Shown here: piece after piece, positions 59,802-64,000 of the stretch
Layout: the number at the start of each line of letters is the position of its first letter
Position numbering within the stretch: the first letter of the stretch is position 1
From: Planctomycetota bacterium
GTDB lineage: Bacteria; Planctomycetota; UBA1135; UBA2386
Length of the DNA: 64,000 nt
Direction of reading: 5' to 3'
Assembly: GCA_021776805.1 (NCBI GenBank)
Contig: JAJFFD010000168.1
Location: 1-64,000, forward strand
Position numbers and translations under genes: made by a program
Notes under the pieces: model-generated
Database searches by the model: none
What the model was told of the DNA's origin: nothing
Seen by the model: the letters and a program-made list of their open reading frames with translations, nothing else

Positions 59802-61952
59802 CTACTTCACATAGAGATCAACCGGGTTGGTGGCGATTGGTCCGAACTGGCCTTGCACGATCACGGCCGTGGAGAGGCGCAGGCCTCGCAAGCTGGCATG
59901 GATACTGTGCTCGCCCAAGAGCAGCCAGGCTTCCGCATCGCCATCCTCTGAGAGCAGGCCGGACATTCCGGCCAAGAGAGGAGACTTGGAGTGCAGGAAG
60001 TCCCTGGTTACCTGATCTTCGACCAGGCGCAGGGGGTCCGTGCCGGACATTTGCTGGTGGTGGTCAGCCGTGCCAGATGCACTGAAGTACACTTGGTAGG
60101 GTCTGCCCGCTAATCCCGGTGGGGCCTCAATGCTATAGCGGATGTTCCTGGGGTCTTCGATGTCGAAGCTAACCTGCGAGATCGATAGGGCTGGTTGGAC
60201 AGTGCTACGCATCGGAAGGTCGAACCAAGATAGGCGCGCTGGGCTGTGCTCGATGCGGTAACTGAAGTCGTTGAAGTAGGGAGCAACCCAGAGATTCTCC
60301 TGCTGCCCGAAGGTGCGAAGGGTCAGGTTCTCGATTCTCAGTCTGATGCTTTCGCCGGCAAGGATGATCGCGTTGGTTGTGATCATCTTGATCTGAACAT
60401 TGTCCGTGGTCGCATCATTGTTTGCTGGATGCCACCGGTCGCCTCGCACCAGGGCCATACCGCTTGCGAGGAAGCGTTCCGTCCCGTTGGCTGATACCTG
60501 GTAGAGCGCTGCATGGACCTGGTAGGTATCGCTACTGGCTGAAATCAGCAGGCTCACCCTTGGCGAACCGGCTAGTTCAACATCCTCTTCGAGAGCGGGC
60601 GTATCGTACTGCACCGATGAGAGGGGGATTCGTTCCATGGTCGGGCCAGCCTCAGCTCTTGCGTCGGTCACATAGGCTGACATGTCGAAGCCCTCGTCCA
60701 CGACTTGCTTGACCAGGTCACGTGGCTCTTGGCCCTGAGGAGGAGTGGTGGAGAGTCTGTTCTCTTCGCGTAGGAAGAAACGCTGCATGCTCGTGTGCGC
60801 CGGCGGCCAGTCGTCATGGTGTCGGTTCCAGATCATCTCCAGCGGATCCGCGTAGAGATCACGAGTTGCAGCCACTACGCCGGTGACGAAGACAGCATCC
60901 CTATCGATGCCTGTTTCCTCGCCTTTGAGAAACCGGGCCATCCAGCGATCCCAGTTGTTCACGTGCTGCTGGACCTGATTCATGTTCAGCACGAGTTCGT
61001 GGCCCCAGGTTGGGCCGAGGAAGGCGCGCCCAGGTGTGCTGTCCGGCAGTTTCTGGATGGCTTCGACGACTCCGTCAGCACCAGCCCAGGCATCGTTCCA
61101 GCCCAGTTGTGCGTAGATCGGGACGTCTGAGCTCTGCAGCAGCTCGATGTCTCGACGGAATTCACTCTGGTCGATCAGTCGCGCCGCAGCCTCAAAGTCC
61201 TCACGGAGAATCGCGGATCGCAGAGCATCCCCGAACTCGGGGAGATAGTTCACGTTCTGTTCGACGAAGAGGGACTTGAGCGTCGAGTTTTGGACCGCGC
61301 TGTGTTGGGGGAAGGGTACTTCGGAGGTGAATGGCGGCATCAGGTTGGGTGTTACCGCCTTGAACTCGGGAAAGCGGAGCAAGCCTCGCGAGTTAGCAGG
61401 CAGATCTCTGCCCGACCATGCCGCTGCCGCCCAGGCATGTGCACCGCCCTGACTGAGGCCTGTCAGGCCGAGGCGATCCGTGTCGGCGAGAGGTGCCAGG
61501 CCCCGTCCGTAGCGCTCTTCCAAGAAGGCGACGATTTCCACCAGGTCCAGACGCTCGGCTTCCCCGATCAGCTCAGTGCCCATATGCGCCGGGCTGAGTT
61601 CCCGAAAGGAGCCCTGGCCACGCACATCGTAGGCGGCGCTCAGGAATCCACGGGCTGCCCAGTTGTTCGCGTAGCCAATCTCGTCCTTGCGAGTTCCACC
61701 CAAGCCGTGCACCACGATGACCACGGGCCATCCCAGGGGTCCGGGCCTGTCCTCCGGGTAGCGGAGGTCGATCTTGGTGCGGCCGCCATCCGAGTAGGCC
61801 ACCTCCACATCGAGCTCTTCGGCGACCTCGAATCCAGAGGGTGGCGGCTGCGGGTCTAGCCTTTGCGCGGGGAGTGAGGTGAGGGAAAGAGTTGAGAGGA
61901 GGACAGGAGCGAGAACTGATCCGAACTTGGCGGACGACTGGTGTCGATGCAT
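59802..61952 (-). CDS. Secreted S15/CocE-like alpha/beta hydrolase (X-Pro dipeptidyl peptidase family)
   Basis: 716 aa with a signal peptide ending 'LSLTSLPAQ'. The hydrolase core has 'PVVIVVHGLGGTRKDEIGY', the nucleophile Ser in 'GLTGLSQGGAHAW', the acidic region 'YAQLGWNDAWAGAD' and His in 'GPTWGHELV'. A jelly-roll C-terminal domain starts near residue 470 ('VELAGSPRVSLLISASS...YQVHAALYQV'). Peptidase or esterase; substrate unknown. Confidence 0.8.
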   Translation of the reverse strand: MHRHQSSAKFGSVLAPVLLSTLSLTSLPAQRLDPQPPPSGFEVAEELDVEVAYSDGGRTKIDLRYPEDRPGPLGWPVVIVVHGLGGTRKDEIGYANNWAARGFLSAAYDVRGQGSFRELSPAHMGTELIGEAERLDLVEIVAFLEERYGRGLAPLADTDRLGLTGLSQGGAHAWAAAAWSGRDLPANSRGLLRFPEFKAVTPNLMPPFTSEVPFPQHSAVQNSTLKSLFVEQNVNYLPEFGDALRSAILREDFEAAARLIDQSEFRRDIELLQSSDVPIYAQLGWNDAWAGADGVVEAIQKLPDSTPGRAFLGPTWGHELVLNMNQVQQHVNNWDRWMARFLKGEETGIDRDAVFVTGVVAATRDLYADPLEMIWNRHHDDWPPAHTSMQRFFLREENRLSTTPPQGQEPRDLVKQVVDEGFDMSAYVTDARAEAGPTMERIPLSSVQYDTPALEEDVELAGSPRVSLLISASSDTYQVHAALYQVSANGTERFLASGMALVRGDRWHPANNDATTDNVQIKMITTNAIILAGESIRLRIENLTLRTFGQQENLWVAPYFNDFSYRIEHSPARLSWFDLPMRSTVQPALSISQVSFDIEDPRNIRYSIEAPPGLAGRPYQVYFSASGTADHHQQMSGTDPLRLVEDQVTRDFLHSKSPLLAGMSGLLSEDGDAEAWLLLGEHSIHASLRGLRLSTAVIVQGQFGPIATNPVDLYVK

Positions 61953-62850: not shown

Positions 62851-63792
62851 ATGACCGTAACTTCGAAATCAATCATCACCCTGCTTGCTGCAGCAAGTCT
62901 AGCTGGCTCTGCCTGCGCCCAAGGTTCCCAGGAGGATCTGGTCGCCAAGCGCGAGGCAAAACTGGCCGCCGACTGGATCAAACTGGCCGATTGGGTCCTC
63001 GACTACGACGAGGCCAGGGCCAAGGCCAAGGAGACTGGCAAGCCCATCTTTGCCTACTTTACGCGCTCGTACTCGGCTTGACCGCCCTGCAAGTCCCTCG
63101 AGAGCGGTGCGCTCTCGAACCCAGAGTTCGCAGAATTCGGCAAGTCGGTGGTGCTCTTCCTGCACAACACTTCGAGGGTGGATGACGAGCCCTATCCAAA
63201 CCTTCTGCAAGAGAAGGGTGGGGGTGGCTTCCCCTTCTTGGTGATGCTCGATGCCGATGGCGAAGTCATCGCCCCCCACAAGGGTGCGAGGAGTGTCGAG
63301 GCCTTCGCGAAGACTGCCGAGGCCAGTCTCGCCTATGCAGATCTCAAGGCTCGCTACGACGCAGGCGACAAGACAGCCACTCTGGGCTACTTGATGGCCG
63401 CCCTCGACCTGGGCGCGGTCAAGCTGGCTGAGGCAAACAAGATCTACTCGCAGGTGGACGAGAAAGAACTCGACCAGGCGCAGCGCGACGAGATCAAGGC
63501 GAGGCTATGGAGTGCGGAGTATCAGGAGATCTTGGGCACCGTGAGCTCCCTCGAGAACGCGGTTGCTGCCGGCAAGGGCTTCAAAGCGATGCTCGATGCG
63601 GGCTTCAAGCCGGACGATGGTCAGCATCCGAATGTTTGGGCGATGGTAAGCTACTACGCGACTGACTCGAAGAACGCGGATCTCCTCGCCGAGGCCATCA
63701 AGGAGTTTGCGGAGACCAAGGCGAATTCGCGTTTCAAGGACCCGAATCTCCAGCGCATGAAGGATGCCCTGGCAGAGATGCAAAAGAAGTAG
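62851..63792 (+). CDS. Secreted thioredoxin-fold protein with in-frame TGA, candidate selenoprotein (UPPC)
   Basis: 313 residues if TGA at 63079-63081 is read as selenocysteine (codon 77). A signal peptide ('IITLLAAASLAGSACAQ') precedes a helix ('WIKLADWVLDYDEARAKAKETGKP'). The thioredoxin core starts 'IFAYFTRSYSA', then U77-P-P-C80, 'KSLESGALSNPEFAEFGKSVVLFLH' and 'GGGGFPFLVMLDADGEVIAPHKG', with the cis-Pro region in 'FPFLV'. The rest is helical. The frame continues without other stops to TAG 63790-63792 and coding quality is equal on both sides. A hairpin resembling a bacterial SECIS follows the TGA. Alternative: nonsense mutation or base-call error of a Cys codon. Confidence 0.75.
63098..63118 (+). 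promoter_or_regulatory. Candidate bacterial SECIS hairpin
   Basis: TCGAGAGCG (63098-63106) pairs perfectly with CGCTCTCGA (63110-63118), loop GTG; one pair less gives loop GGTGC at 63106-63110. The stem starts 16 nt after the TGA and the loop 24 nt after it, inside the 16-37 nt range used for bacterial SECIS searches, and a G leads the loop as required. Confidence 0.65.
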
Positions 63793-63810: not shown

Positions 63811-64000
63811 ATGATCAATTCACGCAGCAATCAGCTCGTCGCCATGATTCTCGGCGGCGGGATTCTAGCCCTCCCGCTCAGCGCGCAGTCGCGCCTGAGC
63901 CAGGAGGAGCTGATCGAGAGACGAGACGCCAAGATGGCCGAAGAGTTCATCCAGAACGCAAACTGGATCTTGGACTACGATGCCGCCAGGGCGCAGGCGA
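63811..64000 (+). CDS. Tandem paralogue of the thioredoxin-fold candidate, cut by window end
   Basis: The frame from ATG 63811 is open to base 64000 (63 codons). A GAGGGG ribosome site lies 8 nt upstream. The signal peptide ('MINSRSNQLVAMILGGGILA...SAQ') is followed by 'EELIERRDAKMAEEFIQNANWILDYDAARAQA', clearly similar to 'EDLVAKREAKLAADWIKLADWVLDYDEARAKA' of the preceding gene. The active-site region lies beyond the window, so it is unknown whether it carries TGA or a Cys codon. Confidence 0.8.
   Translation, partial: MINSRSNQLVAMILGGGILALPLSAQSRLSQEELIERRDAKMAEEFIQNANWILDYDAARAQA

Follow-up and report, generated by a model that had tools for sequence, protein, structure and literature searches.

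The gene at 62851-63792 on the forward strand of the window, by which we mean the whole stretch of 64,000 nucleotides that was analysed, is almost certainly a genuine selenoprotein gene, as predicted from its sequence. Translated with TGA as selenocysteine (Sec, U), it would encode an exported Thioredoxin_7-domain protein of 313 amino acids with U77 in a UPPC motif. The full statement, that UGA is decoded as Sec and that the product is an exported thioredoxin-domain thiol-disulfide oxidoreductase, is likely in view of the sequence comparisons and the structural model. The open reading frame extends from the ATG at 62851 to the TAG stop at 63790-63792 and contains a single in-frame TGA at 63079-63081, which forms position 1 of a UxPC active-site motif (S-A-U77-P-P-C80); the codon of Cys80, the presumed resolving residue, is at 63088-63090. 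An earlier note on this DNA had given the coordinates, the frame on both sides of the TGA and the UPPC motif, all of which were exact on re-reading.

The TGA recurs at the same site throughout the family. In the 36 best members, the U77 column contains 33 TGA and 3 TGC codons, and among 93 distinct motif-bearing genes there were 89 TGA, 3 TGC, and 1 TGG (one further regular-expression match, with AGG at the site, is not a family gene). The 121 genes that could be aligned at the Sec site comprise 98 with TGA, 15 with Cys, and 8 with other residues; because some Sec-less genes were fetched on purpose for this count and for the 119-gene tree described below, the Sec-less share in either is not a frequency. 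The in-frame TGA therefore stands where homologues have Sec or Cys, and the comparison with Cys-containing homologues that the earlier note had proposed gave close members with one or the other in this column almost without exception. Cys80 is invariant in the 36-member alignment, in which protein homology is unbroken from the Sec site through to the C-terminus. Downstream of the TGA, the changes between close homologues fall mostly at third codon positions (21/8/83 at the three positions for L091-L100 and 49/21/115 for L039-L072). As judged from these sequences, the recurrence of the TGA and the third-position bias downstream of it are far beyond chance. A sequencing error as the cause of the TGA is ruled out by its presence in independent genomes.

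A bacterial SECIS hairpin is present at 63098-63118 (+), with a stem formed by 63098-63106 and 63110-63118 and a loop at 63107-63109, which reads GGTGC if the top pair opens. The stem is a perfect 9 bp, located 17-37 nt after the TGA with the loop starting 25 nt past it, and its minimum free energy (MFE) is -15.8 kcal/mol (z -2.0 relative to dinucleotide-shuffled sequences; p = 0.007 when synonymous codons are shuffled). According to the bacterial SECIS model, the apical loop lies 16-37 nt after the TGA and has a G in the first two loop positions (PMC13188914), and the hairpin, located within the coding region, agrees with this model in loop distance and loop G. It is found at the same place across the Sec genes, the loop starting 23-25 nt after the TGA in 91 of the 98 (the GGU-type loop being the most frequent), and is generally missing from the Cys/other homologues. 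With a flexible register, the stem runs unbroken over at least 7 bp in 78 of the 98 Sec genes vs 3 of the 23 Cys/other genes, and the stem scores of Sec and non-Sec genes differ at p = 2.6e-9 (mean 20.0 in Sec genes vs 12.7 for synonymous-codon shuffles; 11.9 vs 11.0 in Cys genes). Across 33 genes, 89.6% of the pair cells are formed in register compared to 34-61% for slid versions; both partners vary at five of the nine pairs, one of which has switched from G-C to C-G in eight genes, and the covariation score of 0.293 was equalled by none of 500 shuffles. The MFE of the whole 45-nt segment against synonymous shuffles gave a weak split (mean z -0.82 in Sec genes vs -0.13 in Cys genes, p = 0.005), because the sequences are GC-rich, and the direct stem measure separates Sec from non-Sec genes far more clearly. 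What had been noted as a SECIS-like hairpin is thus a 9-bp stem that covaries and is specific to the TGA-bearing homologues.

The source genome (G000; 5.2 Mb, 91% complete) encodes the Sec machinery: selA, selB, selC and selD, on whose presence the earlier note had made its claim depend, were all found, each over its cut-off (selA, 478 bits; selB, 349 bits; selD, 353 bits; tRNA-Sec with the anticodon UCA, 72.8 bits). The selD gene (L010, G000:C93:50407-51327) directly follows selA, has one in-frame TGA of its own, and is probably itself a selenoprotein gene. In the data set of the source genome and 60 relatives, selA scored above its cut-off in 57 of the 61 genomes. The genetic code is standard and not reassigned, since 22 of the 40 long ORFs of the window end in TGA.

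Two other readings of the TGA have to be considered. If translation really ended at this codon, or if the codon were a lesion in a pseudogene, the downstream frame would be a separate or dead ORF, and a 76-aa ORF does close at the TGA, while a GTG-initiated ORF of 214 aa opens at 63148. However, neither half contains a whole thioredoxin domain, a TGA is present here in 98 of the 121 aligned genes, across many genera, and where it is missing Cys is the most frequent residue, purifying selection persists downstream, and the hairpin covaries; conservation, as seen across the aligned genes, in practice refutes this reading, to which we assign a negligible probability. It is just as improbable that code reassignment or suppression makes the TGA a codon for tryptophan or some other ordinary residue: L124 is a homologue with TGG here, but where homologues have another residue than Sec, it is mainly Cys, inside CxPC, the tRNA-Sec with its UCA anticodon is present together with selA, selB and selD, and the use of TGA as a stop in the window speaks against it. 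Decoding as Sec is accordingly the reading that we follow below.

Seven genes of the source genome match the window protein over the Sec site, each with exactly one TGA, at the same site. A tandem paralogue starts 18 bases past the stop of the first gene; its 5' part occupies 63811-64000 (+) of the window and it runs on to contig position 64710 (299 aa), with its TGA at 64051-64053, i.e., 51-53 bases past the window edge. Upstream of this pair, a secreted-looking X-Pro dipeptidyl-peptidase/S15-like hydrolase is encoded on the reverse strand (59802-61952), and a few genes downstream there is an ECF-type sigma factor and then a TPR-containing Ser/Thr kinase (L013:8051-11481; contig C77:66050-69480). 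The copy number of the family is usually one to four per genome (seven in G000), and tandem copies recur across genomes. A family match at E <= 0.001 was obtained in 59 of the 61 genomes, nearly all strong matches having one TGA, and the planctomycetote homologues with TGA at the site show 31-44% identity. In a sample of 294 planctomycetote genomes, the family was detected in 69 at E <= 1e-20; TGA is missing from about nine of the matches listed and present in the rest. A scan of genome contigs with the single sequence gave no confirmed relative; an alignment-based scan of 84,980 species, which used the stretch [IL]FxYF[TS]RS[YF][AS] that leaves out the Sec site, yielded 96 confirmed relatives, of which the best 80 come from named Planctomycetota or related organisms, or from bins without a name. 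By these codon counts, the family is strongly Sec-dominant.

Sec has been exchanged repeatedly in the history of the family. In a quick tree of 119 genes, used for the count of state changes only, Sec and non-Sec states are separated by 15 changes, at least 9 of which are forced by well-supported branches. At the site, divergent paralogues have either Cys, in another motif (CGTSIRCE), or one of Glu, Asn, Ser, Tyr, and Leu. The Cys subfamily (L140, L141, L146, L149, L150, and L152; motif TRSFxPCGTSIRCE) is without the resolving Cys of UxPC, has another Cys further on, and may differ in function. The paralogues with Glu, Asn, Ser, Tyr, or Leu (L142, L144, L145, L151, the second gene of L143, L160, and L161) are probably not redox-active in the same way, and not every family member would therefore be redox-active. 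L124, which carries the TGG codon (position 40; JACNIZ010000090.1) yet has an intact 10-bp SECIS hairpin, is one of the three non-Sec genes whose stem reaches 7 bp; this combination points to a very recent loss of Sec or a base error. The very divergent L168 (G229:C29), on a long branch, has TGA at the aligned site (FFGKPGUAACQRVE) and possibly represents a separate selenoprotein subfamily. Two further candidates were rejected: in G085:C2, suspected of using TAG for Sec, the site is TGC and the aligned part is without TAG, and a second TGA in L164 falls at the extreme C-terminus of the match, and a true stop is the simplest reading of it.

The protein begins with a predicted signal peptide (residues 1-23, MTVTSKSIITLLAAASLAGSACA followed by Q; 62851-62919, +), read from the sequence by eye, with probable type I cleavage between A23 and Q24, after A-C-A; a hydrophobic N-terminus ending in A-Q is common to most homologues. 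Residues 47-135 belong to Pfam Thioredoxin_7 (PF13899; 42.1 bits vs a cut-off of 27), which was matched by 34 of 36 family members. Besides Sec/Cys77, the invariant residues include P79, C80, R72, S73, E84, and P128, among others; Pro128 (63232-63234, +), just before model strand E129-133, is by its position the cis-proline of the thioredoxin fold. In the AlphaFold2 model (m71bd0fb1e7d2; built with Cys at 77, mean pLDDT 93.6) the thioredoxin domain is followed by eight helices extending to residues 312-313, and the all-helical C-terminal domain comprises residues 149-313 (63295-63789, +). The signal peptide and helical C-terminus that had been proposed from the letters of the window agree with both sequence and model. 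A sequence search of the PDB gave matches to DsbH and DsbD-gamma, and Foldseek gave matches to DsbD-gamma, DsbH, and CnoX/YbbN, the best being CnoX/YbbN structures. In thioredoxins, Trp is usual directly before the redox motif; the residue before Sec77 is not Trp, which we counted against our main reading.

Fold and family make an exported thiol-disulfide oxidoreductase with Sec77 as the nucleophile the most likely function, and the activity is probably that of a reductase or isomerase. UGA 63079-63081 would be decoded by SelB and tRNA-Sec with the aid of the SECIS at 63098-63118, and the 313-residue product would be exported via its signal peptide and fold into a thioredoxin domain of the DsbD-gamma/DsbH type followed by the helical domain. 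Outside the cytoplasm, Sec77 would then attack a disulfide or an oxidised cysteine in a client, and Cys80 would resolve the mixed selenenylsulfide to give a Sec77-Cys80 bond, which a membrane donor, e.g., a DsbD-type protein, could reduce again (the genome encodes a transmembrane protein of this type). The helical domain may bind substrates, clients, or partners. Clustering of the neighbouring genes revealed no conserved neighbourhood from which the client or the electron donor could be named, no neighbour being common to more than 4 of 51 loci.

The protein might instead be an exported seleno-chaperedoxin, in which the helical domain would serve as a holdase for unfolded exported proteins and Sec77 would protect or reduce client cysteines, by analogy with CnoX (YbbN) in the E. 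coli cytoplasm. The best Foldseek matches (CnoX/YbbN, thioredoxin plus TPR) and the TPR matches in two family members are consistent with this proposal, but the TM-score to CnoX is 0.25-0.28 with an rmsd near 19 A, so that the domain order is shared and the arrangement is not; furthermore, CnoX works with GroEL/ES in the cytoplasm (PMC8129009), whereas the window protein has a signal peptide. We consider it unlikely; it would be a subtype of the oxidoreductase reading, not a reading opposed to it. In its widest form, equally doubtful, the phylum-wide, Sec-dominant, exported family, multiplied within genomes (seven copies here), would be an envelope seleno-chaperedoxin for selenium-based extracytoplasmic proteostasis, whose Sec-less copies may keep only the binding. 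More improbable still is a peroxidase-like antioxidant, with Sec77 reducing hydroperoxides in the envelope: Sec occurs in several bacterial peroxidases (PMC13188914), but the best matches are to Thioredoxin_7 and DsbD/DsbH and not to peroxiredoxin or GPX families, and the motif is UxPC, not TxxU or UxxT. The thiol-disulfide oxidoreductase thus remains our preferred reading.

Among described families, the disulfide reductase DsbH (NF043050; PDB 2ju5) and the DsbD gamma domain are nearest by sequence profile and fold, with the same thioredoxin fold, the redox motif in the same place, and export. However, DsbH has Cys instead of Sec, the window protein scores 27.9 bits vs a cut-off of 190 (the best score with NCBIfam 20.0, no model of which reaches its cut-off), and the DsbH model has 166 positions and therefore no room for the helical domain of 165 residues. 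The Trx7/PDZ domain-containing (seleno)protein NF041199 shares a Thioredoxin_7-type domain and predicted Sec, but scores 21.2 bits vs a cut-off of 300, is listed with the motif CxxU (PMC13188914) instead of UxPC, and has a PDZ domain, for which the window protein gave no match, having the helical domain instead. The VPGUxxT thioredoxin-like (seleno)protein type 2 (NF041383), also a thioredoxin-like selenoprotein, scores 26.1 bits vs 275, and its motif lacks a resolving Cys, whereas the window protein (UPPC) has Cys80. The thiol:disulfide interchange selenoprotein with PF13098 and UxxC (PMC13188914) is of the same UxxC thioredoxin-fold type and could be a distant relative, the comparison being one of Pfam scores and catalogue entry (Thioredoxin_2: 24.3 for the window protein vs a gathering score of 27; 6 of 36 members at E <= 0.001). 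The chaperedoxin CnoX/YbbN (PDB 3qou) has the same order of thioredoxin and helical domains, but it is cytoplasmic, acts with GroEL/ES, has SxxC in E. coli (PMC8129009), and is without the Sec and the signal peptide of the window protein; with a whole-chain TM-score in the range given above, the likeness is one of plan and not of membership. The 119-family prokaryotic catalogue of 2026 contains no entry for Thioredoxin_7 with UxxC and is silent on planctomycetes (PMC13188914), and the main text of the deep-Sep paper names no such family (PMC12013277); a study of planctomycete selenoproteins (PMC4807772) lists its candidates in a supplement, the contents of which lie outside this comparison. 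Within NCBIfam 20.0 and the 119-family catalogue, the statement of the earlier note that no selenoprotein of this type had been described therefore holds, and we regard the family as uncatalogued but of a known kind, with the reservation that the PF13098 UxxC entry may be related to it.

Standard annotation stops genes at TGA, and databases are therefore likely to miss the family or to show it in shortened form. With it, the selenoprotein catalogue gains an exported family that is multi-copy and Sec-dominant. Together with SelD, the family brings the number of selenoprotein genes in the source genome to eight or more, exceeding the six that have been used as the mark of a selenoprotein-rich organism; the selenoprotein-rich phyla named in that work are Deltaproteobacteria, Clostridia, and Synergistetes, and Planctomycetota are not among them (PMC5029168). 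The many natural changes from Sec to Cys or to other residues, with matching loss of the SECIS, make the family useful for asking why Sec is kept.
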